DNA of 64,000 bases from Lentimicrobiaceae bacterium (GTDB taxonomy: Bacteria > Bacteroidota > Bacteroidia > Bacteroidales > F082), in assembly GCA_002708315.1 (NCBI GenBank), contig PANC01000019.1, positions 1 to 64,000 on the forward strand. The letters run 5' to 3'. Under the pieces are notes generated by a model. It was given only the letters and a program-made list of their open reading frames with translations, had not been told where the DNA came from and did not search any database. A program made the position numbers and the translations under genes. Of the stretch, positions 18,184 through 62,054 are shown piece after piece. Each line of letters begins with the position of its first letter. Position 1 is the first letter of the stretch.

Positions 18184-18205
18184 CAGCTTTTAAGTTTACC
18201 AAATA

Positions 18206-45400: not shown

Positions 45401-45431
45401 TTGACGACTTACCAAAATTATTGTACCTTTG
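45401..45431 (+). promoter_or_regulatory. Bacteroidota promoter (TTG-N20-TACCTTTG) for the + operon of the glycan locus
   Basis: TTG at 45401-45403, TACCTTTG at 45424-45431. Confidence 0.65.
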
Positions 45432-45440
45432 TTACTTATT

Positions 45441-45462
45441 ATGTATGAACATATGAACATAT
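45441..45462 (+). promoter_or_regulatory. Putative GntR operator A (ATGTATGAACATATGAACATAT)
   Basis: Tandem ATGAACAT x2 (45445-45460); shares ATGTATGAACATATG exactly with 62022-62036 and, in gene orientation, ACATATGAACATAT with complement(62012-62025). Confidence 0.6.
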
Positions 45463-45485
45463 ATATAAACTAAAGGATTCTAGCG

Positions 45486-46334
45486 ATGAAAAAAAACTTT
45501 ACTCTTAAAAATGGCTTTGGAAAAAATTCCATGTTTAAAAGCCTAACTGTAGCAACCCTCTTCTCATTCCTGTTTTTTATGGGATGTTATGAATGGAAAA
45601 CCATAATTCAGCCTGATTATGCAACCGTGAATTCATATTTTGATGTATTTCTAAGTGCCCATGATGATGGAAATCCAGATAATGACTGGACAAATCCTGA
45701 TCTTCATGATTATGGGTTGTTTGGTGTTATGCTTCCTGATAGCTGGACTGTTGGGGACAGTATCCCATTTACAATTATCTGTACTAACCCTGAGTACAAT
45801 AATTCAGGAATATTACTCTGGAGCGCTGATAGGTCCCAAACTCTTGAGGATTCGATTCCATCTCCGAATGGATATTACTGGTGGGGTGCCGCAACTAGCG
45901 CTGAAGCTTCACTAATATATTTTGATAGTTTATATATGGAACCAAGGATATATACTGGAAGCACTCCCGGCAACTATTTCCTTCGTTATTCCATTGGTGA
46001 TATTGACTATTGGGATAGAAACCCTGCAGATGATGTAAGTGACCCTATTCCAATTACCCTGATAGACAATACAGGGATAGATGAATTTCTTTCTTCTTCA
46101 AATATCACCCTGTATCCTAATCCAGCTTCAGAATATTTCAACATTGATATAAACATCTACAGGAATGAACTTATAGTTTGTGAGATTTATGATATAACTG
46201 GAAAGATAATTTATAATCAGGAAATTACTAGTAAAAGCACCCGAATCAATATTCCTGACCTATCCCAGGGTATTTACTTTGTAAACCTTAGAAACGGAGA
46301 GTCTGAAAAGTCACATAAGATTCTCGTTAAATAG
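45486..46334 (+). CDS. Secreted protein with T9SS type A sorting domain, unknown N-terminal domain
   Basis: Signal sequence with FMGC; C-term NITLYPNPASEYFNIDI..YDITGKIIYNQ..DLSQGIYFVNLRNG..KILVK. Confidence 0.85.
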   Translation: MKKNFTLKNGFGKNSMFKSLTVATLFSFLFFMGCYEWKTIIQPDYATVNSYFDVFLSAHDDGNPDNDWTNPDLHDYGLFGVMLPDSWTVGDSIPFTIICTNPEYNNSGILLWSADRSQTLEDSIPSPNGYYWWGAATSAEASLIYFDSLYMEPRIYTGSTPGNYFLRYSIGDIDYWDRNPADDVSDPIPITLIDNTGIDEFLSSSNITLYPNPASEYFNIDINIYRNELIVCEIYDITGKIIYNQEITSKSTRINIPDLSQGIYFVNLRNGESEKSHKILVK

Positions 46335-46400
46335 TAACTATTTTAATCTGAAATTGCCAGATTGTTTATCAAATAGCTTTTAATAATCTGGTGATTTCAT

Positions 46401-47747
46401 ATGCATATGCTTTTGAACAGGTTTATCTTTTCAATTTTAGCTTTGTTTTTTTTAGTCTTGTGGATTCAAGGAAGTTCACAGGGAATACCTGACACAGCAT
46501 TCAATCAGTCAATCAGAGTCCAGAATGGAGGCTGGGTTGCAGGGGATGCAACGTTCTCTATTTACCTTCCTGACAACAGAACCTTGTGGTTATTCGGGGA
46601 TAGTTTTATCGGAACGGTAAATGAAGATAGTTCGCTCGCTCCAGGAGCAAGTATGATTAGAAACTGTGCCATTGTTCAAGAGGATGAAATCATGTTTGCA
46701 CTTTACAATGGAAGCTTCGGTGAACCTGAGGATTTTGTGTCTACAAACTATCCTGACTCAACATGGTTTTGGCCAGAACATGGAATGGTAGAAAATGATA
46801 CTCTGAAAATAATATTTTCCGAGTTTGGCAAAACGGATGGAACACCCGGCTGGAATTTTGAATATCTTAATGCATGGATAATATATCTTTCATATCCAGG
46901 ATTAGAATACATTAATCAAGTCAAGCTTCCATACTTTGAAGAAAATGGAGTAATGTATGGTGACAGGTTATTGGAGCACGATGGCTATACATATATTTTT
47001 GGAAGAAAACCCGTTAGTCCTGATTACAATATTCCAATGCCCCATATAGCTAGAGTTCCATCAGGAGACATTTTATCAGAATGGGAATTTTATGATGGAA
47101 ATCACTGGACATCAAATTCATCTTCATCAAAAAAAATATCTGATCAGCCTGTTTCTCAACAATATGGAGTTTTCAAATATCAGGATAAGTTTGTGATGAT
47201 TACCCAGGAGATATGGTTGGGGACACATATATATTCAATGGTTTCAAACCAGCCTTACGGGCCGTGGAGTAACCTTGAAGTTATTTATATCACCCCTCTC
47301 CCATATGAAGATATGTTCACATACAATGCCTATCCTCATAGTCAGTTTAATGATAATAATGAGTTACTGGTATCTTACAATTCAAATGGAGACTTTTTTG
47401 AAATCTTCAACAATATTGAATTATACAGACCAAGATTCCTCAGAATTCCATATTCAACGATACATCCTTCCTTTACGTCATCGGATATAATTGAACAGAA
47501 CGAAAGATCAGAATTAATCCTTTATCCAAATCCATCAGATAATTCACTGTACGTCAAAATACCAGATACTGAAGTAACTTTTGAGGAAGCAGTTTTATTT
47601 AATGCGCGGGGTGAAAAAGTGGGAGTTTTTACAATATCCGGAATTAGCTACAATGATAATTATATTAAAGTTCCGACTAAAAATTTAGCTACAGGATTTT
47701 ATATAATCAATATTGGAAGCAGTTTTGGAAGATTCATACATAAATAA
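46401..47747 (+). CDS. Secreted beta-propeller-type protein (DUF5005/DUF4185-like) with T9SS type A sorting domain
   Basis: LPDNRTLWLFGDSFIGTVN..; C-term LILYPNPSDNSLYVKI..ATGFYIINIG; homologous to 49331..50443. Confidence 0.75.
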   Translation: MHMLLNRFIFSILALFFLVLWIQGSSQGIPDTAFNQSIRVQNGGWVAGDATFSIYLPDNRTLWLFGDSFIGTVNEDSSLAPGASMIRNCAIVQEDEIMFALYNGSFGEPEDFVSTNYPDSTWFWPEHGMVENDTLKIIFSEFGKTDGTPGWNFEYLNAWIIYLSYPGLEYINQVKLPYFEENGVMYGDRLLEHDGYTYIFGRKPVSPDYNIPMPHIARVPSGDILSEWEFYDGNHWTSNSSSSKKISDQPVSQQYGVFKYQDKFVMITQEIWLGTHIYSMVSNQPYGPWSNLEVIYITPLPYEDMFTYNAYPHSQFNDNNELLVSYNSNGDFFEIFNNIELYRPRFLRIPYSTIHPSFTSSDIIEQNERSELILYPNPSDNSLYVKIPDTEVTFEEAVLFNARGEKVGVFTISGISYNDNYIKVPTKNLATGFYIINIGSSFGRFIHK

Positions 47748-47772
47748 TCTATTTTTGCTCTGATTTCATATT

Positions 47773-48501
47773 ATGAAAATTGTAATAGATCATAAGAGTT
47801 TAGTGCCCTTGCATGCTCAGGTAGAAGCCTTGGTAAGGGAAATGATAAAGCAACCCGAATATCGTAACGGTGCATTTCTGCCCAATGAGATGAGTCTTGC
47901 AAATCAGCTTGGTATATCAAGAAATACTGTACGGCAAGCCTTCAATAAACTTGTATATGAAGGTTTGTTGGTTAGAAAAAAAGGTGTTGGCACAAGAGTA
48001 GCTGACAGTAATGTGAACACAAGAGCGCAAAACTGGTTGAGTTTCTCCCAAGAGATGAGGGGAGCAGGAATTGAAATTATCAATTTTGATTTAAAAATAT
48101 CCTGGACAGAATCCGATGACAAAATATCTATGTTCTTTGATATTCCATTAGGTAAAAAAATACTAAAACTTGAAAGACTTCGTGGACGCGATAATTATCC
48201 CTTTGTTTATTTTGTATCATATTTCCATCCACGAATTGGGCTTACAGGCGATGAAGACTTCAATAGACCCTTATATGAAATTCTAGAAAAAGATTATTCA
48301 GTTATTGTAAAACTATCAAAGGAAGAAATTTGTGCCGGACTTGCAGGTGAAGAGATTGGCAATACTCTGGGAATTGGGTCTGATAAGCCAATCCTGATAA
48401 GAAAAAGGTTTGTTTATGATCCAGGCGGCAGGCCAGTGGAATATAACCTTGGTTATTACCGTGCAGATAGCTTTACCTACACCATTGAAAGTGAAAGGTA
48501 A
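47773..48501 (+). CDS. GntR family transcriptional regulator (HutC/UTRA subfamily)
   Basis: wHTH LPNEMSLANQLGISRNTVRQAFNKLVYEGLLVRKKGVGTRV; UTRA domain with RLRGRDNYPFVYFVSYF and VEYNLGYYRADSF. Confidence 0.93.
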   Translation: MKIVIDHKSLVPLHAQVEALVREMIKQPEYRNGAFLPNEMSLANQLGISRNTVRQAFNKLVYEGLLVRKKGVGTRVADSNVNTRAQNWLSFSQEMRGAGIEIINFDLKISWTESDDKISMFFDIPLGKKILKLERLRGRDNYPFVYFVSYFHPRIGLTGDEDFNRPLYEILEKDYSVIVKLSKEEICAGLAGEEIGNTLGIGSDKPILIRKRFVYDPGGRPVEYNLGYYRADSFTYTIESER

Positions 48502-48540
48502 CTTTAGTCAGCGCTAATATGTTAATATGGCAGCAATTTC

Positions 48541-49326
48541 TTATTTAAAGAAAAACTCGAAATGGCCATCTATGGCTGAACGCCAATAACTGGAGTTGTG
48601 AGATCCTTTGCTACTAATAAATTTTACATCAATATCATTTTCTTTACATACATCAATAGTTGCAATATTGATATTATAGAAAGAATCTTCTGTGCCACAA
48701 CTAACAATTATTCCATTTTCTGAGGTTTTAAGTTTTTCAATATTCCAGATAACAGAATAGTCTTTTAATAATTCTTCCGGGTTTTCTGAATCAGACAAAC
48801 CTAATATCCTGCTGATTCCATAGTGTTCAGACCAATCAGTTAAATCAAGTAACCCACTAAGGCTTCCGGCACTTCTGAAATACTCGGTAAATGTTTCAAA
48901 TAAATACAAAGCTCCATGTCCTCCCATACTTAATCCTGTGACAAAAATACTGTCTTTCTGAATATTGTAATTTTCTGCAATCACTGGAGCCAGATCCCAT
49001 GAAAAAAATGTTGCCCAGTCATTTTCGTTCTTTGCCGGGCTATTAATATACCATGAATCGTATAATCCATCGGGGCAAACAATTATTGTATTGTATTTAT
49101 TAGCATATGATTGACAGTCAATAATATCATCCCAATAATGGTAATTTCCAGCCCACCCATGAAGTAAATATACCACAGGAAAAGCATTCTGAAGCTCACC
49201 ATTATCCGGGGTAAAAACCAATACCGTATCAGGAGAAACCAAATAACTTGAATTAATTATCAATTGTTGCTGAGCGTTTAAAATAATACTAAACAACAGT
49301 AATAATGCAATGATTATATTTTTCAT
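48541..49326 (-). CDS. Secreted alpha/beta hydrolase (esterase D/feruloyl-esterase-like)
   Basis: Signal peptide; VVYLLHGWAGNYHYWDD; GLSMGGHGALYLFE nucleophile elbow; KGSHNSSYW. Confidence 0.85.
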   Translation of the reverse strand: MKNIIIALLLLFSIILNAQQQLIINSSYLVSPDTVLVFTPDNGELQNAFPVVYLLHGWAGNYHYWDDIIDCQSYANKYNTIIVCPDGLYDSWYINSPAKNENDWATFFSWDLAPVIAENYNIQKDSIFVTGLSMGGHGALYLFETFTEYFRSAGSLSGLLDLTDWSEHYGISRILGLSDSENPEELLKDYSVIWNIEKLKTSENGIIVSCGTEDSFYNINIATIDVCKENDIDVKFISSKGSHNSSYWRSAIDGHFEFFFK

Positions 49327-49330
49327 GGAT

Positions 49331-50443
49331 TTAATTATTTAAAATTTTATCCATGTTCACTCTTATAAATACAGGACGGTATTTACTAGCATCCTCAAAT
49401 AAGTCATCCAAATTAAAGCTGTTCACACAATATGAGATAAGCAATTCATTATCATGAATTAGATGTGGATGTGCCACCGGATTGTATGCGAAAAGATCCT
49501 TTTCCTTAACCAGTGGCTGAAGTTTCCATAATTCCTTTTTGTTGGTCCACCCAGTATAGGGATTGTCAGATGTAACAGAGTAAATACTACTTGCCAGAAA
49601 ATCCCCTGATTGAGTAATCATCACATATTTGTTGTCATACTTAAATACGCTAAATTGCTCTGATCCTTTGAAATCAGTCATTGGTTTTGCAAGTTTTGAA
49701 TCTAATACCCAGCTTTCTCCTGTATAAAACTCCCAGTCTGCTAATATATTTCCCTTAGGAGCGCGGGCAACATACGGAAATTTATCACCCGCACCATAGA
49801 TGTATGTGAAATCAGGATCATCATCACAAACGGCATGACCCCAGTGAATCTCAACTTCGCCCGGATAATCAAAATGATCGATTTTTTCTAATGCCAGATC
49901 AGGCAGACTAAAAGTAGCAATGTTTGCATTTGTCCATCTAAATCCCCAGTTGCCTGTATCAGCCTGATAAAAGCCTGTCATAAAGACCATCAGTTTACCA
50001 TTTTCAACGAACCCATCGCCTGGCCAGTACCACAAAGAATCTTCAGAAAACTCGGTTCCTTTAACTGCTTCTGGAGGTATTACAAGTGAAGATTCCCATC
50101 CATCAATAATATTGTATAAACTTTTTAAAGAATCACCATCCTGGACTGCCATGGCATTTCTAATAAATACCGGTGATCTTTTATCACGACCACCATCCGG
50201 ATTAACAGTTCCTAAAAATGAGTCTCCAAAAATCCAAACTGTTCTTTTATCGGGAAGCTCTACTGAATAAAAGCCATCGGCACCGGTTACTCCACAACAA
50301 TCACGAGCAAAATAGTTGGTATAATACTCATCAACAAAAACATTTCTTGTGTTGTTGGGTTGTTCCTTTTCATTACTGTTAATACATGATGCAATTAGTA
50401 TTGAAACAGTAAATATTTGTATGGCAATGGTTTTCATATTCAT
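49331..50443 (-). CDS. Lipoprotein, beta-propeller-type (DUF5005/DUF4185-like)
   Basis: Lipobox SILIASC; LPDKRTVWIFGDSFLGTVNPDGG; paralogous to 46401..47747. Confidence 0.75.
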   Translation of the reverse strand: MNMKTIAIQIFTVSILIASCINSNEKEQPNNTRNVFVDEYYTNYFARDCCGVTGADGFYSVELPDKRTVWIFGDSFLGTVNPDGGRDKRSPVFIRNAMAVQDGDSLKSLYNIIDGWESSLVIPPEAVKGTEFSEDSLWYWPGDGFVENGKLMVFMTGFYQADTGNWGFRWTNANIATFSLPDLALEKIDHFDYPGEVEIHWGHAVCDDDPDFTYIYGAGDKFPYVARAPKGNILADWEFYTGESWVLDSKLAKPMTDFKGSEQFSVFKYDNKYVMITQSGDFLASSIYSVTSDNPYTGWTNKKELWKLQPLVKEKDLFAYNPVAHPHLIHDNELLISYCVNSFNLDDLFEDASKYRPVFIRVNMDKILNN

Positions 50444-50447
50444 TTTT

Positions 50448-53441
50448 TTATTCTTCTACATATTTTTGAATTGCCTCTTTCCAAACTTGATATCCTTTAC
50501 CATTCAGGTGTAATCCGTCCAAACTATAGTCAGGATTTAGTTTATTATCATCATTAGAAAAAATTGAAAATAGTTCAATGTATTCGATGCTTTTTTCTGC
50601 AGAAAGCTTTTCCAAATGTGTATTAATTTGCATGATATCACTGGTACTACGAGTGTAATGAATGGCATCATCAACCGGTAGCACACTTTGAATATAAATT
50701 TTGGTATCAGGGCATATGATTTCAATACTATCAATAATCTTTGTGTAATTGGATACAACATAATCCACAGTTTTACCATAGGCCATATCATTGGTTCCAA
50801 TCATTATAAATATCTTGGAAGGTTTAGAGCTAATAATCTCATCAAGTCGTTCCAATACACCGTCGGTATCATCCCCGCCAATACCTCGGTTTTTAATATT
50901 TGGATTTTGGAATAATTCGGCCCATTCACAACCATCGGTTATACTATTTCCAAGAAAAATTATCTCATTCTCAGTGTCAGGTAGCAACTCGAAATGCTCC
51001 TTTTTCTGATAGTAATAAGCCCGCATGGCTTTGTTCCATGCTTCCATATCTTCATCAAATTTATCATAAGCCATTATCTCATTAATCTCACCCTGTGTTA
51101 ATATACTGCTCATCGAAGGTGGTGCATCTTCAGGTTTACTTCCCCATTTTTTATTTGGTTTATTTCCCATTTTGAGTTCTAATTTACCTCCGCCCACAAG
51201 CTTCGAATGATAAAACCATGGTTTAGTAAGCTTTTCACCATTAAGCTTTGCCCATTGAATATACTTATTCTCCCTGCTTACATTTTTAGCTTCTATCACG
51301 AAAGTGCCACCCGAATAATAGTTTGAATCAAGTTGAATCATTATTTTCTCAAAGATAGGGCTGCCAATTTCATATATTGGATTTATAGATGCACCGCCAT
51401 CCATCTCAAATAAGCCCATAGCACTCATAACATACCATGCTCCCATTTGCCCCTGATCCTCATCACCGGGCCATGCATCAATGCTATCACCATAAAACCC
51501 ATACATTATTTCACGAACCCACTTTTGAGTGAGCCATGGTGCACCGGCATAATTAAATAAATAAGCAGCTTCCATATTTGGCTGATTTCCATGATTAATA
51601 GGGAGAATGCCAACTCCAATTAAACCATTTTCGTTGAGATGTTCTGAATTAAATCGGTGAGGAAGTGATTTTTGAAATCCTTCTTCCAAGCGGCTTATAT
51701 ATGTTTCTTTTCCAAGTAAATTAAGCAGTCCTTTCTGATCATGGGGAACAAACCATGTGTATTGCCAGGCATTTCCTTCAACAAAACCAGGCCCAAGGAA
51801 TACAGAATGACCATAAGGTGAGAAATCCTCTTTCCAGCTACCATCTGAATTTTTCATCCAAACATAACCCACTTTTTCATTGAAAACATTTTTATAATTA
51901 AAAGCTCTCTTGGTGAATGTCTTAAAATCAGATTCATTTCCTAATGCCATTGCCATCTGACCAACTGTCCAGTCATCATATGCATATTCAAGGGTGTTGC
52001 TAACCGGGCCTTCCTCATTTGGCACAAATCCATATTTTATGTAGGATTCAAGATGGCGATTGCCAACCAATCCTCCGCCAGGATGAGGTTTACCCTGCTC
52101 CATTTGATTGTGTCGAATTGCAGTATATGCCTTATCAACATCATAATTTCTAATACCCTTTTGAAATGCGCTTACAATTAAAGGTATTTCATGTGAGGCA
52201 ACCATAATACTTGAATATTCAATTCCGGTCGGACCTTTAGGAATCCAGCCACCTTTATCATATATTTCAAGTAATGATCGAACCCAGCTATTTGCAATTT
52301 CTGGATGCTGAAGTGTCCAAAGTTGATTCAGATTCCAGAATGTATTCCAAAAGGCGTCTCCACCATAAACAACATCTGAACTATCTTTGAGTTGCTGAAC
52401 CTTTTCATACATATCACGATACTTTCCATTTACATCGCTCCATATAGTGCGACTAGCATATGCCCTATACATGTTTGTATAGAACTTTTTAGTATCTGTT
52501 TCACTTCCTCCGGAAACCTGAATTGTTCCCAGTAGATTATTCCATGTATTCTGGTTATATTTTACCACCTTATCAAAATTCCAGTTAAAGGGATCTAGCT
52601 CAGTTTCCATATTAAGTCTTGCCTGCTCAACACTAACAAGAGAAACGCCAGACTGCATAAGAATTTGTTCTCCTTCATGTGTTTCAAAAGTTACAAATGC
52701 TCCGACGTCCTCGTCTCCATATATTAGAATTATATCATCAGTATTCTCTTGTATTTCTTCGCGAACCCAACCATTGAATGACTTAAATGGCGTATCAAAT
52801 CTGATAACAAAATGGAGGATAAACTCATTATAGTTTGCACCTCTGAGGCTTTGCTGTACTGAATAACCCTCTATTTCTGTATCACTCACCTTCGTAATTC
52901 TTGCAGCAAATATTTCATAGCTATACTCGGTTGAGATTTTTAGGTCGATAATAATGCGTGCATCTTTAGCTTTTGGAAATGTATATCGCTGGAAACCTGC
53001 CCTTGTGGTGGAAGTGAGTTCTGCATTTATATTGTAATCTTCCAAGAACACCTGATAATAACCAGCTCTGGCTACTTCATTTCTATGACTGAATCGTGAC
53101 CTGTATCCCAGATCAGGGTTTGTTTCCGTTCCGGGAATAATTTTTAAAGGGCCAGTAGCAGGCATAGTAAGTAATCCTCCCATTGTCCAAGAATGCAGAT
53201 GTGAAAATCCGGTAATATTGTCTATTTTATACTCATATCCAGCCTTCCATCCTTTCCTTTGATTGTCAGGTGACAGTTTAACCATACCAAAGGGCATGGT
53301 AACACCTGGAAAAAGCATCCATCTGGCAAATGTGGTTCCCATTAGTGGGTCAATATAGTCAACAGGTACTATTCTATTTTTCTGAGCTGATAACTGAAAA
53401 AATATCCCTAGGATAAATGTGATCAATAATAACTTCTTCAT
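50448..53441 (-). CDS. GH92 family alpha-mannosidase fused to C-terminal SGNH/GDSL hydrolase
   Basis: GH92: DPLMGTTFARWMLFPGVTMPFGMVKLSPD, WPGDEDQGQMGAWYVMSAMG; SGNH blocks GNSITDG, GIGGDDT, GTNDM, DGLHLN within 50448-50969. Confidence 0.93.
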   Translation of the reverse strand: MKKLLLITFILGIFFQLSAQKNRIVPVDYIDPLMGTTFARWMLFPGVTMPFGMVKLSPDNQRKGWKAGYEYKIDNITGFSHLHSWTMGGLLTMPATGPLKIIPGTETNPDLGYRSRFSHRNEVARAGYYQVFLEDYNINAELTSTTRAGFQRYTFPKAKDARIIIDLKISTEYSYEIFAARITKVSDTEIEGYSVQQSLRGANYNEFILHFVIRFDTPFKSFNGWVREEIQENTDDIILIYGDEDVGAFVTFETHEGEQILMQSGVSLVSVEQARLNMETELDPFNWNFDKVVKYNQNTWNNLLGTIQVSGGSETDTKKFYTNMYRAYASRTIWSDVNGKYRDMYEKVQQLKDSSDVVYGGDAFWNTFWNLNQLWTLQHPEIANSWVRSLLEIYDKGGWIPKGPTGIEYSSIMVASHEIPLIVSAFQKGIRNYDVDKAYTAIRHNQMEQGKPHPGGGLVGNRHLESYIKYGFVPNEEGPVSNTLEYAYDDWTVGQMAMALGNESDFKTFTKRAFNYKNVFNEKVGYVWMKNSDGSWKEDFSPYGHSVFLGPGFVEGNAWQYTWFVPHDQKGLLNLLGKETYISRLEEGFQKSLPHRFNSEHLNENGLIGVGILPINHGNQPNMEAAYLFNYAGAPWLTQKWVREIMYGFYGDSIDAWPGDEDQGQMGAWYVMSAMGLFEMDGGASINPIYEIGSPIFEKIMIQLDSNYYSGGTFVIEAKNVSRENKYIQWAKLNGEKLTKPWFYHSKLVGGGKLELKMGNKPNKKWGSKPEDAPPSMSSILTQGEINEIMAYDKFDEDMEAWNKAMRAYYYQKKEHFELLPDTENEIIFLGNSITDGCEWAELFQNPNIKNRGIGGDDTDGVLERLDEIISSKPSKIFIMIGTNDMAYGKTVDYVVSNYTKIIDSIEIICPDTKIYIQSVLPVDDAIHYTRSTSDIMQINTHLEKLSAEKSIEYIELFSIFSNDDNKLNPDYSLDGLHLNGKGYQVWKEAIQKYVEE

Positions 53442-53445
53442 AATA

Positions 53446-54549
53446 TTATTTATCTAGTTGTTGAAGAGCAAAAGAATAAGCACCAAGAGCTATTGCGTGG
53501 CTTGCCCCAATTTTAGATACTCCTACACCTATTCTGGGCAGCGCATCAAACTCAATTCTCTTTCGGGTATTGGGGATATCAATGGATTGAATATTTCCGA
53601 TTGCAAATTCCCTAAATATTCTCTCATCATCTAAATCAAATAAATTGATTGACAATCTATCGGTTTCATATCCGGTAAAATGTTTGTATTTTCTATTAAT
53701 TTCATTGAACATAAAGGGTGAAAATAGATCCCATGCCGCAGTAAGTCCCCCTCCCAGGACCACCAAACCATCAACCACGGTAACAATATTAGCTATTGAA
53801 CTTCCCAAAGCTTCTCCAAACTGTCTAAATGCTTCAACTGCTCCTAATCTATTACCCGTAAGGTTGCCATTGGCAATATCCGCAATATCTTTTGGCATAA
53901 GTGTATCTGAAAATGCAATTCCCGATTCCTTGGAATATATTCTTTGAATAGCTCTTGTACTAATACTTTCCTCGGCATTCCAGTTAGTATCAAATTTATT
54001 TATTGTATTATGAACCTCAGCACCACAGGAATTATCACCAACCATAAGATTATTATCGATTACTATACCCCCTCCAAAACCAGTTCCAAGTGTTAGCCCA
54101 ATAAGATTTTTAAACTGTTTAATCCCTCCCGCTTTAAATATTCTTTCGTTTATATAAGGAAGAAATCCTAAAAGTGCTTCACCATATGCAAAAAGATTAC
54201 CATCATTATTTATGAAAACAGGCAGATTGAACTCATCTTCCAATATGGGACCCAACGGTACATTACCATTAAAAGCTTTGAAGTTTGGAAGGTTTCCAAG
54301 TATACCAAGCTCATAATCTGCTGGTCCTGGAAATGCAAAACTTATTGCCACTGCCTTATTATCCGTGAAAGAATTAATATGTCTGAAACCGTCAATTATA
54401 TTTTTGATACACTTATGTTGATCATCAGCCTCTGCAGGTAAGCTAAAAGGCTTTGTTATTTCCTTATTTGACTGGATAGCAGAAAAGACAAAGTTAGTTC
54501 CACCGGCATCCAGTGTTAGTATAATTCTATCGTCAATTGTTGTTTTCAT
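53446..54549 (-). CDS. ROK family protein (putative hexokinase/mannokinase)
   Basis: LDAGGTNFVFSAI; VFINNDGNLFAYGEALLG; TLGTGFGGGIVIDN. Confidence 0.88.
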   Translation of the reverse strand: MKTTIDDRIILTLDAGGTNFVFSAIQSNKEITKPFSLPAEADDQHKCIKNIIDGFRHINSFTDNKAVAISFAFPGPADYELGILGNLPNFKAFNGNVPLGPILEDEFNLPVFINNDGNLFAYGEALLGFLPYINERIFKAGGIKQFKNLIGLTLGTGFGGGIVIDNNLMVGDNSCGAEVHNTINKFDTNWNAEESISTRAIQRIYSKESGIAFSDTLMPKDIADIANGNLTGNRLGAVEAFRQFGEALGSSIANIVTVVDGLVVLGGGLTAAWDLFSPFMFNEINRKYKHFTGYETDRLSINLFDLDDERIFREFAIGNIQSIDIPNTRKRIEFDALPRIGVGVSKIGASHAIALGAYSFALQQLDK

Positions 54550-55700
54550 TACTTGGTTTTAATAACATAATAGGAGGCATATGCAATATAAAGCATACAG
54601 AAAATTAATACAAATATTGAAGCCATAATTCCGAACATATCAACTAGTAATCCAATAATTGGTGGAATAATAGCACCACCACTAACTGCCAGAATGATAA
54701 GACTAGATAATTCATTTGCATAAACTGGTTTCTTTTCAACTATCAGTGCAAACATTATGGGAAAAACATTGGCAAACCCCAAACCGGAAATAAAAATTAA
54801 TATCTGTGTCAGGAGCAGATCCTCAGAAACTAAAATTCCAATTAAGCCCAATATTGCAATAAGGGTACTTATTACCATGAACAATTTAATATTAAGTTTA
54901 CGAAGTAGTATAGCACCTATAAACCGTCCTGCCATCAATGAAGCAAAGTAAATTACGATGCCCATACTTGCAGCTTCAAGACTTAAACTAAATTTCGACA
55001 CTAGAAAGGTGGCAATATTAGTATTCATGGCAACATCGAAACCCACCATAAAAAATATAGCTAGCACTGTAATAAGGATATATTTATTCTTCAGTAGTTT
55101 GAAGGAACTTTTAAATGTTGCCGGTTCCTTCTCTGGTTTTGACTCATCAATTTTTATCGAATTCAACCAAATCGCTGAAAGTACTGAAATAACAGCAAAA
55201 ATCGGGAACACAAGTCTCCAGTTATCAAAATATAGGGCCAATCCGGCAGTAATCATGGGCCCTAGCATAGATGCAATGGCTTTTACTAGTTGAGAAAGGC
55301 TTAGGTTTGCAGCCTTTGAATCAGATGATGAAATATCTATCAACAATGGGTTTGCACTTACCTGTAATATGGTATTTCCAATACCAAGCAATGCAAAGCC
55401 AATTAATGAAGTTGGTAAAGTATAGTATATAAAAGGAATGAACAATCCAATTGCGGTAAGAATAATTCCAATATTTACAGTAAGTTTTTTACTGTTTCTA
55501 TCTTGAAATATTCCTGTGGGAATTGACAACAAAGCAAACCATATAAAAACCATAAATGGTATAAGCTGAGCTACCTTATCGGAAAGGTTGAAATCGTTTT
55601 TAACATACCCGGTTGAAACACCAACTAGATCAACAAAACCCATTACAAAAAATGAGAATATTACTGGTATAAAAATTTTAGGATTTGTACTTTTCTTCAT
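54549..55700 (-). CDS. MFS sugar transporter (FucP-like)
   Basis: 12-TM MFS pattern; GIGNTILQVSANPLLIDI; stop codon overlaps ROK start (TAATG). Confidence 0.85.
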   Translation of the reverse strand: MKKSTNPKIFIPVIFSFFVMGFVDLVGVSTGYVKNDFNLSDKVAQLIPFMVFIWFALLSIPTGIFQDRNSKKLTVNIGIILTAIGLFIPFIYYTLPTSLIGFALLGIGNTILQVSANPLLIDISSSDSKAANLSLSQLVKAIASMLGPMITAGLALYFDNWRLVFPIFAVISVLSAIWLNSIKIDESKPEKEPATFKSSFKLLKNKYILITVLAIFFMVGFDVAMNTNIATFLVSKFSLSLEAASMGIVIYFASLMAGRFIGAILLRKLNIKLFMVISTLIAILGLIGILVSEDLLLTQILIFISGLGFANVFPIMFALIVEKKPVYANELSSLIILAVSGGAIIPPIIGLLVDMFGIMASIFVLIFCMLYIAYASYYVIKTK

Positions 55701-55709
55701 GTCAACTTT

Positions 55710-57464
55710 TTATTTATTTGTTCTAACATAGGCCAGTATGGTTCCACACTCCTTTCCCTTTGATTCTCCATACGGTTCAATAATAATATCTCCTGCGCTG
55801 GCCGGGAGTATAAATGTTTCAGCATAGTGAAAAACCTTAGGAGCAAAATTGTTTTCCAGACTTTTTACAATTATTTCACGGCCTTCAATAACATTAAAGA
55901 CCCGAACTCCAGATTTCTGTTTATGTATAACTGGTTTGATAAACCAATGCCTTCGTGTTTCTATAAACTCGCTTTCATGCAGACCTGTTTTTTCACTTTT
56001 CCAACCATCACCGAATTCAATCGGTTCAATTTGGTTAATGAGATTTTCCTTAGTGTAGCTCTCTGTTCGTTCCCAATTGATTACATTTTTACCGTGTTCA
56101 ATATTAATTGGCCTAGGTTTACCATCCATTCCCAGACGCTCCCAGTCCCAAAGTTTAAAGGTAAAAATATAAGGTGTTGAGCTTATCTCCAGAACCATTG
56201 AATTTTTCCCTGAGCAATGAACGGTTCCAGCCGGAATTAGAAAATGATCATGTTTTTTTGCTGGCCATTTCATTACATATTTTTCAGTGGGGAATCTTTC
56301 TCCTGTCTCCTTGGAGTGTCTCAGGTCATCGATCATGCCCTCCGAATTGATGCCTTCTTTCAAACCAAGATAAACCACAGCATCATCTCCTGCATCAAGA
56401 AGGTAATAGCTTTCATCCTGTGTATAGTTCATTCCAAATTTTTGTTGGATGTACTCAGTAACAGGGTGTACTTGAAGACTTAAATTCCCACCATCCATGG
56501 TATCAAGAAAGTCAAATCTGATTGGAAATTCATCCCCAAACCTGCCGTATACAGCTTCACCTAGTAATTCAACAGGCCTATAGTATACAACATTTACTGA
56601 TGGAGTTTCAAAGTTTATATTTCCAAATTTTAAGTATAAACTATTTTCTTCCGGTACACAATTAAAGCACCATGCATAATTATCTGTTTCTTTATCGAGA
56701 TCACAAACCTCTTTCATCCACTGACCTCCCCATGGGCCGGCATCAAAATAAGGTACTAGGCTAAATGGCTGGTGGGCTGCAAGATTAATTCCTTCACGGA
56801 ATAAGTTGCCGGTTATCATTTTTGGTTCTAACATATTATTAGTATCCAGAACATAATCCCACCTATTAAACTGAGTCTTTTTGAATCTGTCAAGTACTCT
56901 CCAATCGACAAAGTATGCACGCTTATATTTGGATTCGATTCCCTCATCAATATTTATTATTCCTAGATTATTTACCTCATTACGACGCATACGCATCTGA
57001 ATTTCCCATCTTGCCATATCAAGGTAAATATAGCAATCAGGATTTTCGATTAAATATGAAGCACCTGAGCCCAATGCTATTGTCAGACCTTCTGTTCTGG
57101 ATTCAATCTCATTTCTTGCTTTGGCAAGCTTCTCGCTATCAATAAAACTATCAAGAGTTAACCTGGTGATATAACCAAATACCCTGTCTGTGGTAACATC
57201 CTGTGCAGTCAATTCCTTTATTCGACCTTCCGAAAGAAATATATCAGAGGAATAATAGAAATTATCGGGCTGAAGTCCTTTTTTTATCTCATCTGCAATT
57301 TCCTGCTCCAAAACACCTTGGTTACATTCCATTAATATGGTGAATTTTTTCTTTCCTTCTATATCATGTCTTAACTTTGACACGATACTTTCCCAACCAA
57401 CCAGGCATTCGTCATTGGATGGTCGGATTTCTACTCCAGGGTAATTGTTAAAGTTTGATTTCAA
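55710..57464 (-). CDS. Class I mannose-6-phosphate isomerase with about 240 aa N-terminal extension
   Basis: Cupin PMI motifs GGNLSLQVHPVTEYIQQKFG, DHFLIPAGTVHCSGKNSMVLEISS. Confidence 0.85.
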   Translation of the reverse strand: MKSNFNNYPGVEIRPSNDECLVGWESIVSKLRHDIEGKKKFTILMECNQGVLEQEIADEIKKGLQPDNFYYSSDIFLSEGRIKELTAQDVTTDRVFGYITRLTLDSFIDSEKLAKARNEIESRTEGLTIALGSGASYLIENPDCYIYLDMARWEIQMRMRRNEVNNLGIINIDEGIESKYKRAYFVDWRVLDRFKKTQFNRWDYVLDTNNMLEPKMITGNLFREGINLAAHQPFSLVPYFDAGPWGGQWMKEVCDLDKETDNYAWCFNCVPEENSLYLKFGNINFETPSVNVVYYRPVELLGEAVYGRFGDEFPIRFDFLDTMDGGNLSLQVHPVTEYIQQKFGMNYTQDESYYLLDAGDDAVVYLGLKEGINSEGMIDDLRHSKETGERFPTEKYVMKWPAKKHDHFLIPAGTVHCSGKNSMVLEISSTPYIFTFKLWDWERLGMDGKPRPINIEHGKNVINWERTESYTKENLINQIEPIEFGDGWKSEKTGLHESEFIETRRHWFIKPVIHKQKSGVRVFNVIEGREIIVKSLENNFAPKVFHYAETFILPASAGDIIIEPYGESKGKECGTILAYVRTNK

Positions 57465-57475
57465 ATTAGTGGCCT

Positions 57476-58918
57476 TTAGTTATATCCTTGGTTCTGGGTG
57501 AGTTTTGAATTTGCATCCATTTCTCTTTGTGGAATTGGAAATACATAATTGTATTCCTGCGGGTTTGCTTCGTTCTTAGCTCTATTGACAAATTCTATCA
57601 AATTCCCGGTGCGAACAAGATCATACCATCTGATACCTTCATTAACAAATTCAACACGACGCTCATGCAATACAGCCTCTCTGAATTCATCCTTTGATAA
57701 TCCATCTAGGTCAGGTAATACATTTTCATTACCATTCCGTGCTCTCTGGCGAACAGTGTTAATTGCTAAATAAGCCTCACTCGATGGACCTAAAAATTCA
57801 TTTAGCGCCTCGGCATAGATTAAAAGAACCTCTGAGTATCGCATTATGGCAAAATTGGATCCGCATTGTGCAGTTTCATCTGGTGCATAAGTATCTTGAT
57901 CCCAGTGTTTCCATACATGAGGATAAAAGGTATCAAACCAGTACTGGTCAAAAAATGTAACCTCCTTTCTATAGTCCCCTTCTTCAAAGCTCTGGAGAAG
58001 ATCTTCTGTTGGCAACATTATTTCCACACCAGCAGAAAACGTACCTGGGATATTAGGTAAACCACTAATAACTATTTGATTTTGCTGGCTTGGCACTCCT
58101 GAAAAAAATTGAGCTGCAAATACTGACTCTTTGCCATTACGGTTTATATCCTTGAAGTTACTTGAATAATCATCATATAGTTCGTAAACCCCCAATTCCA
58201 TGACTTTATTGGCTATCTGGTAAGCATTTTCCCAGTTTCCCATTGTAAGGTAAACCTTTGACAAAAATGCCAATGATGCACCACTTGTTGCACGCCCCTT
58301 ATCACCACCAGAATAATATAATTGGGGACATCTCTCGGATGCCACATTGAAGTCAGATACTATCTGATTATAAACCTCATCACTAGGTGTTCTAGATACA
58401 TATTTCTCTTCATCATTTAAGTCCGGGCTGATAGGTTTTATAATCAGAGGAATATCACCATAGATTCTTACAAGATTAAAGTAAAACAATCCTCTCAGAA
58501 AATGTGCCTCCCCCAATATTTGAGATTTTTTTGCCGAGTCCATTTCAATATCAGGCACTTTCTCTAAAACAATATTTGCCCTGAAGATACCAAGGTATGA
58601 TCCCTGCCATATACCTTCAAGATAGGTATTCGTTGTTTCAATATCATAGTTGTTAAACTGATGAATATTCGGGTCATTCAATGTCGTACGTGAAATGCAA
58701 TCATCAGATGCTACATCCTGTAATAACCATAGATAGCTGTTATATTGATTTACATATGTCAATAAAGAATAAACAGCATTTATGGCACCGTTGGCATCTT
58801 CTTCAGTTTGATAATAATTATCATAATATATTTTATAGGGTTCTAATTCAAGTTGTTTCTGGCAGGAAATAGCAATAAGTAGAACTAAAATCAGTGGTAT
58901 TGAATATATCGCTTTCAT
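57476..58918 (-). CDS. SusD/RagB family nutrient-binding lipoprotein
   Basis: Lipobox AISCQKQ; RGLFYFNLVRIYGDIPLI; C-term FPIPQREMDANSKLTQNQGY. Confidence 0.96.
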   Translation of the reverse strand: MKAIYSIPLILVLLIAISCQKQLELEPYKIYYDNYYQTEEDANGAINAVYSLLTYVNQYNSYLWLLQDVASDDCISRTTLNDPNIHQFNNYDIETTNTYLEGIWQGSYLGIFRANIVLEKVPDIEMDSAKKSQILGEAHFLRGLFYFNLVRIYGDIPLIIKPISPDLNDEEKYVSRTPSDEVYNQIVSDFNVASERCPQLYYSGGDKGRATSGASLAFLSKVYLTMGNWENAYQIANKVMELGVYELYDDYSSNFKDINRNGKESVFAAQFFSGVPSQQNQIVISGLPNIPGTFSAGVEIMLPTEDLLQSFEEGDYRKEVTFFDQYWFDTFYPHVWKHWDQDTYAPDETAQCGSNFAIMRYSEVLLIYAEALNEFLGPSSEAYLAINTVRQRARNGNENVLPDLDGLSKDEFREAVLHERRVEFVNEGIRWYDLVRTGNLIEFVNRAKNEANPQEYNYVFPIPQREMDANSKLTQNQGYN

Positions 58919-58935
58919 GACTAAATAATTTAAGA

Positions 58936-61900
58936 TTAAAAATTAACTACAATTCCAGCTAAATAAGTTCTGGCAGTTGGATATCCGCCATAGTCATAAC
59001 CTATTCTGGTATTATCAAATGCGAACCTACTTACCTCGGGATCAAAACCAGAATAATTTGTAAATGTGAACAAGTTTTCTACTGTTAAAAATACTCTGGC
59101 ATCACTTATCTTCAATGCCTTCATCAATTTGGATGGAAGGTTGTATGAGACTGTTATAACTTTAATTCGCACATATGAACCATCCTCAAGATACCTGTCT
59201 GACATATGAAGATAATCAGTATTTCTATTGGCTCTTGGATATTTATTGCTTGGATTCTCAGGTGTCCACCTGTCAAGCATATTAACTGATGCATTTGACA
59301 AACCATTGCCTGATTCCAGCTCGAACCTGTTACTGTTAAGGATTTCATTACCATGTTGCCCCTGAATAAATATATCAAGAGATATATTACCATAGGAAAA
59401 TGAATTATTCAGTCCCCAAAAGAATTTTGGAAGTGCATGGCCAATTATTTTCCTATCCTTATTATCAATTTTACCATCGTCATTCTGATCTATGTATTTA
59501 AAATCACCTGGTTCTGCATTATATACTGCAGCCTGATCAGCTTCATCAAGCTGCCAGATTCCATCTGCCTGTAGTCCATAAAAACTTCCAAGTTGTTCAC
59601 CCTGAGTTATTATTGACCAAGTCCCTATTTTTAACTTGTAGGTATCATTATTGATATAAAGTGTTTTGCCACCTAGATCAAGAATTCTGTTGTCATTAAA
59701 CGATATATTGAAATCCGTATTCCACTTAAATCGGTTTATAAGATTTGCTGTACGAATATTAAATTCAAATCCAGAATTTTTCATGCTCCCGATATTCTCG
59801 AAATAACTTGAATAGCCGGTAGTGAATGGCAATTCAGAATTATAAAGCATGTCCGTGGTTTTCTTGTAATAATAGTCGGTAGTGATAGCAATTCTGCTGT
59901 CGAAGAATCCCATGTCAAGTCCAATATCAAACTGTGCCGTTTTCTCCCATCTTAAATTGGCATTGGCTGGAGTAATAGGTGCAAAACCTGAAGCAGGATA
60001 ACCACCGTTAAAGTAATATGATGTCCCTGAAATAGTGCTTATATAAGCATAATCATAAAACCTATCATTTCCAGACATCCCATAACTCAGTCTCAATTTT
60101 AGGTCAGAAAAAATTCCTGTTTGCCAGATAAATGATTCTTCGATCAACCTCCATGCAAATGCTGCTGATGGGAAGAAAGCATATCTATAATTACTGCCAA
60201 AACGGGATGACCCATCTACCCTACCCGTGACTGTAAACAGATACTTCTTATTGAAATTATAATTAACCCTTCCCAGATAGGAAACAATTGCAGACTCAGA
60301 AAATGAAGCATAAATATTTGGCATATTTTCAGCATTTTCAATTCCATAATAACCGAGAATATCATTTGGGAAGCCCGTTGAAATATTTATATAACTTCTT
60401 GAGTTGTTCTTTTGGAATGTTAAGCCAGCAAAAGCTGAAATATCATGAACGCCTTGGATATTTGTATTATATGAAAAGGTATTCTCATAGAGGATGGTTT
60501 GAAGTCTTGTATAAGCAAATCGAGCCTGGCCATCATTAAAGGATCCCGAATATATAGTTCTTGGGGTATACATATCCTGAGTTTGATTGTATAAGTCCGT
60601 TGCAATACTTGTTTTAAATCTCAAATTTTTAATAATCTCATACTCGGCATATACGTTTCCAATTAACCTGCCAATCTTACTAACTGCATCAACCAATCTA
60701 GTTACGGCAACTGGATTATCAAGCCATGCATCTGCATTTGGATCCGTTAAAGTATAATTACCCTCCTCGTCATATATAGGAAGAACTGGATTAAAGGTTA
60801 ACGCAGAATTTACAACACCGGGAAAAAATCCTCCAGGAGTATCAGTCGGAACGGTGTTATTTATTGTATGATTATAACCTACTGATGTTCCAACCTTTAA
60901 GCGTTTATTCAATTGCCTGTCGAATGTGAACCTCAAACTGTATCTGGTAAAATCAGATCCTACAATAATACCATCCTGCTGAAATACGTTACCACTCAGA
61001 GAATACTGAGTTTTTTCGTCTCCACCCGAAAACGAGAGCTGGTAGTTTTGTATTGGTGCATTTCGATAAATCTCTTTTTGCCAGTCAGTACCCACACCAA
61101 GAGAGTCAGGATTCGGATAAAGCGGCATATATCCTGATGGATTAGCATTGTATCCAGCTTCATCATATAATGTTGCGAATTGCTTTGCATTCATTACATC
61201 AATTGAGGATGACTTTTCCTGAATACCATAACTGGCCTTAAAGGTTATTCTGTCACTACCCTCTTTTCCTCTTTTTGTTGTGATGATAACCACACCATTT
61301 GCTCCCCTTGCACCGTAAATAGCAGTTGCCGATGCATCTTTAAGTATGTTAATGGATTCAATATCATTGGGGTTAATAGAGCTTAACCCATTTTCTGAAG
61401 GACTTCCTATCCATGAGAAATTCTGCTGTCCTTCCATTAGTACACCATCGATAACATAAAGAGGTTCTGTACCAGACATAATTGAATTGGATCCACGGAT
61501 TTTCATCGATGTTGCGCCACCGGGCTGACCACTTAGTGATGTTACCTGGACACCTGCTACGCGTCCCTGCATTTTTTTATCAAACGAACTCACAGGAATA
61601 TCTGATAAATCATCCATATCCACCAAAACCACTGCCCCTGTTAGATCCTTCTTTTTAACACTTCCATAACCTATAACAACAACTTCATCAAGTCCGATAT
61701 CACTCTTTTCCATTCTAATATTAATTACATTGGAACTTTGAATATCTATGGTTTCCGTTCTCATTCCAATAAAGGTAAATTGCAGTTTTGTCACTGATTT
61801 ATCGATCTGAATTCGGTAGATACCATCTATATCGGTAACTGACCCTATGGTTGTACCTATTGCAAGTACCGTAACTCCAGGTATTGTAGTACCATCTGAG

Positions 61901-61995
61901 ACATTAGTAACAGTTCCTGTTATTGTCCGCTGTTGAGCTAAAATGCTACTACCAAATAGCAATAGCAATACTATGAGTACAGTTATTTTTCTCAT
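58936..61995 (-). CDS. SusC/RagA family TonB-linked outer membrane protein
   Basis: Carboxypeptidase-regulatory domain, DEVVVIGYGSVKKKDLTGAV, plug and barrel; ATG at 61995 is preferred because the longer ORF start lies upstream of the operator. Confidence 0.97.
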   Translation of the reverse strand: MRKITVLIVLLLLFGSSILAQQRTITGTVTNVSDGTTIPGVTVLAIGTTIGSVTDIDGIYRIQIDKSVTKLQFTFIGMRTETIDIQSSNVINIRMEKSDIGLDEVVVIGYGSVKKKDLTGAVVLVDMDDLSDIPVSSFDKKMQGRVAGVQVTSLSGQPGGATSMKIRGSNSIMSGTEPLYVIDGVLMEGQQNFSWIGSPSENGLSSINPNDIESINILKDASATAIYGARGANGVVIITTKRGKEGSDRITFKASYGIQEKSSSIDVMNAKQFATLYDEAGYNANPSGYMPLYPNPDSLGVGTDWQKEIYRNAPIQNYQLSFSGGDEKTQYSLSGNVFQQDGIIVGSDFTRYSLRFTFDRQLNKRLKVGTSVGYNHTINNTVPTDTPGGFFPGVVNSALTFNPVLPIYDEEGNYTLTDPNADAWLDNPVAVTRLVDAVSKIGRLIGNVYAEYEIIKNLRFKTSIATDLYNQTQDMYTPRTIYSGSFNDGQARFAYTRLQTILYENTFSYNTNIQGVHDISAFAGLTFQKNNSRSYINISTGFPNDILGYYGIENAENMPNIYASFSESAIVSYLGRVNYNFNKKYLFTVTGRVDGSSRFGSNYRYAFFPSAAFAWRLIEESFIWQTGIFSDLKLRLSYGMSGNDRFYDYAYISTISGTSYYFNGGYPASGFAPITPANANLRWEKTAQFDIGLDMGFFDSRIAITTDYYYKKTTDMLYNSELPFTTGYSSYFENIGSMKNSGFEFNIRTANLINRFKWNTDFNISFNDNRILDLGGKTLYINNDTYKLKIGTWSIITQGEQLGSFYGLQADGIWQLDEADQAAVYNAEPGDFKYIDQNDDGKIDNKDRKIIGHALPKFFWGLNNSFSYGNISLDIFIQGQHGNEILNSNRFELESGNGLSNASVNMLDRWTPENPSNKYPRANRNTDYLHMSDRYLEDGSYVRIKVITVSYNLPSKLMKALKISDARVFLTVENLFTFTNYSGFDPEVSRFAFDNTRIGYDYGGYPTARTYLAGIVVNF

Positions 61996-62011
61996 AATGT
62001 TGATTTTATTA

Positions 62012-62036
62012 ATATGTTCATATGTATGAACATATG
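62012..62036 (-). promoter_or_regulatory. Putative GntR operator B (palindrome ATATGTTCATA-TG-TATGAACATAT)
   Basis: 11-bp perfect inverted arms with 2-nt centre (62012-62035) upstream of susC; shares 14-15 bp words with operator A. Confidence 0.65.
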
Positions 62037-62046
62037 TTTTACAAAG

Positions 62047-62054
62047 CAAAGTTA
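62047..62054 (-). promoter_or_regulatory. Putative -7 box (TAACTTTG) for susC operon
   Basis: CAAAGTTA on + strand; about 11 nt upstream of operator B palindrome, mirroring the + operon. Confidence 0.5.

Follow-up and report, generated by a model that had tools for sequence, protein, structure and literature searches.

In the window examined here, the whole 64,000-nucleotide stretch at positions 1 to 64,000 of contig PANC01000019.1 (assembly GCA_002708315.1, Lentimicrobiaceae bacterium), a glycan locus is built of two convergent operons; one ends with the gene for a GntR-family regulator, the other begins with susC and susD, and both possess the same operator-like element just downstream of their promoters. 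The preliminary description of this DNA had proposed, on the strength of matched motifs at the two outer ends of the locus, that a single local GntR regulon operates here. The coordinates of those motifs and of the associated −7 boxes were confirmed in the sequence, and the features on which the argument turns are listed below.

45424..45431, + strand: −7 box TACCTTTG of the gntR operon promoter (sequence; TAnnTTTG likewise positioned in every aligned relative)
45441..45460, + strand: operator 1, ATGT-ATGA-ACAT-ATGA-ACAT, an inverted repeat with a third half-site (one of two perfect genome-wide matches; 18 of 20 columns identical, 6 genomes)
62014..62033, − strand: operator 2, ATGT-TCAT-ACAT-ATGA-ACAT in gene orientation (the other perfect match; 19 of 20 columns identical, 4 genomes)
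62047..62054, − strand: −7 box TAACTTTG of the susC operon promoter (sequence; alignment)
47773..48501, + strand: GntR/UTRA (HutC-type) regulator, the proposed repressor (PF00392 and PF07702; sole UTRA protein in the genome; closest solved structure NagR/YvoA)

Promoter elements and genes of the locus

Read in gene orientation, site 1 is ATGTATGAACATATGAACAT (45441-45460, + strand) and site 2 is ATGTTCATACATATGAACAT (62033-62014, − strand). Common to both promoters is ATGT-N4-ACAT-AT-N2-ACAT, which at these two sites extends to ATGT-N4-ACAT-ATGA-ACAT; the core ATGT-N4-ACAT is an inverted repeat with GT-N4-AC geometry, and the third box repeats ACAT 8 bp further downstream. The 15-mer ATGTATGAACATATG that had been described as shared does occur at both ends, at 45441-45455 and 62022-62036, on the + strand in both cases, and ACATATGAACATAT is found at 45449-45462 and complement(62012-62025). 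Because the operons converge, however, the same-strand 15-mer has opposite gene orientations at the two sites, and it recurs because the core is an inverted repeat. The distance from the TAnnTTTG box to the first core base is 9 nt at site 1 and 13 nt at site 2; if the box is centred near −7, the operator would cover roughly +5 to +30, on and just past the transcription start rather than squarely over it.

The operons meet tail to tail, with ~40 nt separating gntR from the esterase gene, and intergenic gaps within the − strand operon are at most 17 nt. The remaining genes are as follows, MFS denoting the major facilitator superfamily.

45486..46334, + strand: opening gene of the regulator operon, for a secreted protein whose C-terminus is a type IX secretion tail (PF18962; conserved with the locus)
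46401..47747, + strand: DUF5005/DUF4185 protein with a type IX secretion tail (PF16396, PF18962)
48541..49326, − strand: putative esterase, closing the susC operon (PF00756)
49331..50443, − strand: DUF5005/DUF4185 protein (PF16396)
50448..53441, − strand: GH92 alpha-mannosidase fused to a GDSL acylhydrolase (PF07971, PF17678, PF13472)
53446..54549, − strand: ROK-family sugar kinase (PF00480)
54549..55700, − strand: MFS sugar transporter, GluP/FucP-like (PF07690)
55710..57464, − strand: mannose-6-phosphate isomerase-like (ManA-like) protein with an N-terminal extension (phmmer match to 1qwr, a mannose-6-phosphate isomerase, over residues 229-474, E 1.5e-11)
57476..58918, − strand: SusD-like lipoprotein (PF07980, PF14322)
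58936..61995, − strand: SusC-like outer membrane transporter (TIGR04056; PF07715 and PF13715)

The start of SusC is likely the ATG at 61995; the listed open reading frame, beginning with a TTG at 62049, would run through the operator. SusC carries plug and CarbopepD_reg_2 domains (PF07715, PF13715), and a domain search did not find the STN domain (PF07660), in agreement with the preliminary description. Adjacent to the locus, no gene for a hybrid two-component system (HTCS), a SusR or an extracytoplasmic function (ECF) sigma/anti-sigma regulator was seen. The C-terminal GDSL acylhydrolase on the GH92 alpha-mannosidase (50448-53441) suggests acylated mannoside substrates. The isomerase-like protein (55710-57464) is 584 residues long, includes an unassigned N-terminal region of ~225 residues and has no above-threshold Pfam match. 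The regulator gene appears to share a transcript with those for two proteins that end in type IX secretion tails (45486-47747, + strand), which are unusual partners; this set beside the regulator is conserved in the genus and also present at loci L059 and L060.

Uniqueness and conservation of the operator

The host genome comprises 2.0 Mb in 31 contigs and is 77.8% complete. In the window, the 15-mer with up to two mismatches matches twice against 0.55 expected, so that the window alone provides weak evidence. Across the genome, bare TATGAACATAT occurs eight times, four of these inside the two operator sites; it was rejected as too loose a query, and the spaced pattern ATGTNNNNACATATNNACAT was used instead. 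This refined pattern has exactly two perfect matches in 2.0 Mb, both at these promoters, where about 0.1 is expected from base composition; the motif is thus far from common genome-wide. One-mismatch matches were absent from the 2.0 Mb, and at two mismatches the pattern falls to background (45 genome matches vs 33 for a reversed control), so we claim no wider regulon in this genome. A 95% complete genome whose regulator is 98% identical (G006) showed no sites beyond these.

Eight same-genus genomes, the host and seven others, contain 11 perfect sites (nine in the seven others), all at these two promoters. In five relatives that possess the regulator, perfect sites occur at these promoters and nowhere else, G002 showing a single site because its susC contig starts inside susC, while G004 and G007 have no perfect site, no UTRA protein and no intact regulator. 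In each genome that possesses it, the regulator is the only UTRA protein. The motif is hence conserved upstream of orthologous operons and tracks the presence of the GntR protein, and neither of the sequence-based refutations set out in the preliminary description came true. Among aligned species, the proteins of which are only about 56–83% identical, 18/20 (6 genomes) and 19/20 (4 genomes) operator columns are invariant, as against 20/194 and 30/189 columns elsewhere (10–16%). In G007 (locus L043, G007:C350, about 18200-18500) the locus is mostly deleted, the remnant consisting of the final 37 residues of gntR (75% identity), an esterase gene and a ROK gene; ATGTATTAACAATGCACAT beside this remnant reads, by eye, as a decaying operator.

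A scan of genome contigs furnished 43 relatives of the regulator, many of which adjoin manA, GH92 and susCD genes. Forty-three loci outside the genus (751 kb) hold 26 perfect occurrences of the pattern, in 18 loci, whereas 300 letter permutations of the pattern averaged 0.01 occurrences in the same loci and never exceeded 1. The enrichment is specific to spacing: among palindrome gaps of 0–10, gap 4 alone was enriched (39 vs at most 7), and gap 4 alone stood out likewise when gaps of 0–8 leading to a third half-site in direct orientation were compared (34 vs at most 2); a third box in inverted orientation showed no enrichment in these loci. The sites precede gntR, manA, susC, MFS transporter and glycosidase genes, the last including GH92, in Niastella, Longitalea, Sphingobacterium, Pedobacter, Chitinophaga, Terrimonas, Belliella and other genera. 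Among sites with a single possible transcription direction, the third box is gene-proximal in 21; the opposite orientation was scored in three, those at L063 and L064 owing it to an over-long open reading frame that covers the likely gntR start. Perfect sites are present in five of seven whole genomes outside the genus, and all eight sites lie in gntR-bearing contigs. At a Phocaeicola locus (L091) a clean site is missing and inspection by eye reveals just a half-degenerate TTTGTTCATACATATAA; the operator is therefore not universal among orthologues.

Three further observations concern these loci. In an Ignavibacteriae contig (JABFGH010000007.1, 1812-5611; L084), the same operator stands before gntR, the product of which is 56% identical, and an operon of mannonate dehydratase, DUF4432, SMP-30/gluconolactonase and SDR genes, which could perhaps constitute an oxidative mannose route without mannose-6-phosphate under the same control. 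ManA-like proteins of ~890–900 residues are encoded at L077 (15020-17686), L090 and L092; that at L077 opens with the ROK-kinase-like motif IGIDVGGSH, and such proteins look like kinase-isomerase fusions. Chitinophaga genomes can carry two regulator copies on separate contigs with operator-like sites nearby (L155 in G065, Chitinophaga eiseniae; L069 and L074 in Chitinophaga hostae).

DNA reading and ligand pocket of the regulator

The third gene of the + strand operon encodes, as first described, a GntR/UTRA regulator, with a GntR winged-helix domain (PF00392, E 1.4e-18) and a UTRA domain (PF07702, E 5.1e-26), and its closest solved structure is NagR/YvoA. In NagR the reading of G−5 falls to Arg38 and that of G−4 to Arg48, and the wing is anchored by Gly69 (PMC4333415). 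In the present half-site, (T)ATGT, position −5 is T and position −4 is G. Correspondingly, the Arg48 equivalent is arginine in 45/45 orthologues and the Gly69 equivalent is glycine in 44/45, whereas the Arg38 equivalent is arginine in none of the 45, Val, Ile, Met, Thr or Ala taking its place. Arg48 kept and Arg38 lost match G−4 retained and G−5 lost, so the reading code fits the motif.

Contacts to the ligand phosphate in NagR come from Thr90, Arg133 and Arg135, and from the beginning of helix E5 with Tyr167. Across the 45 orthologues, the equivalents are preserved as Ser/Thr at Thr90 (45/45), Arg at Arg133 (43/45) and Arg135 (42/45), and Tyr at Tyr167 (45/45); the Ser165 equivalent is mostly proline. 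Sugar-side positions differ from those of NagR, with E145 to F, I209 to R, A224 to N and S226 to G, and are invariant in the 45 orthologues. The natural guess from these residues is an effector that is a phosphosugar other than an amino sugar, and with manA, ROK kinase and GH92 genes in the same operon, mannose-6-phosphate would be the leading candidate.

A predicted mannose-responsive repressor and its alternatives

Taken together, we predict, with a probability of roughly 0.85, that the 47773-48501 protein is a mannose-responsive, autoregulated HutC-type GntR repressor of both operons acting through the two sites; this reading of binding, repression and effector is built on the computed sites, their uniqueness, conservation and co-occurrence with the regulator, and the fit to the NagR code. 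When substrate is absent, a repressor dimer would bind ATGT-N4-ACAT-AT-N2-ACAT just downstream of both promoters, where it would overlap the initial transcribed region and block initiation or promoter escape. Its targets would be its own operon (the type IX secretion cargo protein, the DUF5005 protein and gntR) and the convergent susCD-manA-MFS-ROK-GH92-DUF5005-esterase operon; the autoregulation and susCD control put forward in the preliminary description thus gain support as predictions from site position. Processing of mannosides by GH92 would yield mannose, which would be taken up and then phosphorylated, and a mannose-derived ligand in the UTRA pocket, most likely mannose-6-phosphate from the ROK kinase, would free the repressor. 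Both operons would rise together until the ligand is consumed, with the repressor limiting its own level.

Several points weigh against this interpretation. Binding and regulation are predictions from sequence, and the sign of regulation is taken from site position and from the habit of the HutC family. The host genome being 77.8% complete, further sites could be missed. The residues that bind phosphate may be widespread among UTRA proteins that sense sugars, in which case they would be weak evidence for mannose-6-phosphate, and the Ignavibacteriae operon suggests a non-phosphorylated intermediate as the signal there.

Among alternatives, the best survivor, still an unlikely one, is binding of the GntR protein to both sites with activation as the outcome, either at both operons or at one of them while the other is repressed. 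The sign does not follow from position by itself, and operator-to-start distances vary at some divergent manA/gntR loci in other genera; yet sites 9 and 13 nt past a −7 box occupy a blocking rather than a polymerase-recruiting place, and the HutC relatives NagR and DasR repress (PMC4333415, PMC4918961). Somewhat less probable is a different transcription factor that also serves the locus. Against it, the sites and the GntR protein come and go together across genomes, also outside the genus, in other genera the site is often found immediately before gntR, and GT-N4-AC is the stated HutC spacing (PMC4494728). Action in RNA, as a 5′ leader hairpin, is improbable: the element lies in the likely 5′ leader and its susC copy is a near-perfect 24-nt palindrome, but the gntR-operon copy lacks a long palindrome, what distant genera keep is the regular 8-bp stepping of the ATGT/ACAT boxes, the spacers between them being variable, and some sites precede the promoter in divergent loci. 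Chance likeness of AT-rich intergenic DNA, or a recent repeat copied from promoter to promoter, can point only to the mild enrichment of the 15-mer in the window and is scarcely credible, having been rejected by the whole-genome (two perfect matches vs about 0.1), relative-genome and permuted-pattern tests, by spacing-specific enrichment in distant genera, and by flanks that are dissimilar between the two sites and diverged between species while the operator is not.

The repressor proposed here has a close published counterpart in ManR (BT2103), a GntR-family regulator predicted to control mannose and mannoside genes, with three orthologues in 11 Bacteroides genomes; its predicted regulon covers mannose uptake, conversion to fructose 6-phosphate and the BT2107-13 operon, which encodes oligo-alpha-mannosidases and SusCD (Ravcheev et al. 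2013, PMC3878776). Our search of the available literature for experimental work on BT2103/ManR yielded that 2013 prediction only. The likeness extends to the regulator family and to sites at a susCD-manA-ROK-GH92 operon and at the gntR operon, the same in other genera. Bacteroidaceae relatives of the present regulator are 54–62% identical and adjoin manA and/or a ROK kinase, and ATGT-N4-ACAT lies between gntR and manA in three of four newly fetched Bacteroidaceae loci. The present regulator thus probably belongs to the same family as ManR, the comparison with BT2103 being made through its published description. The present locus differs in lying in another Bacteroidales family, in the operon shared by the regulator with two type IX secretion cargo genes, and in its clear third half-site. 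HTCS, SusR and ECF sigma/anti-sigma systems likewise control susCD loci; here SusC is without STN, and control would lie with a cytoplasmic one-component regulator. The contrast drawn in the preliminary description with those modes of controlling polysaccharide utilization loci is fair, but GntR control of mannose and mannoside genes, including a mannoside susCD operon, was already predicted in Bacteroides in 2013 (PMC3878776).

With NagR/YvoA of Bacillus subtilis and DasR, of the HutC subfamily, the regulator shares the domain layout, the GT-N4-AC geometry, the Arg48 equivalent, the wing glycine and the phosphate-binding residues; it differs from NagR in the half-site (ATGT vs TGGT, with Arg38 lost) and at four sugar-side pocket positions. 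GT-N4-AC is the geometry of most HutC-subfamily operators, and an extra box 7–12 nt from the site centre, described as weaker, is on record for several FadR, HutC and YtrA groups (PMC4494728). In contrast to those boxes, the third box here equals the core in exactness at most sites, and it nearly always falls on the same side. We tentatively raise a further possibility, considerably less assured than repression itself: the three-half-site unit (ATGT, ACAT, ACAT in 8-bp steps, asymmetric and nearly always pointing into the gene) may take up several dimers, or one dimer with an extra subunit, as a distinctive GntR mode kept across Bacteroidota and one Ignavibacteriae genome, with a regulon that switches between phosphorylating and oxidative mannose routes.

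The new elements are the locus itself, its operator of three half-sites and the wide distribution of that operator, which together describe a sharper operator and a wider reach than the cited papers do. Regulation of glycan loci in environmental Bacteroidota is mostly guessed from neighbouring genes; here regulator, operator and targets are linked by sequence alone. If the third half-site matters, it would offer a natural case of GntR proteins building larger complexes on DNA. The operator is usable as a genome-search tag for mannoside loci phylum-wide, and may give a handle on which sugar signal opens these loci.

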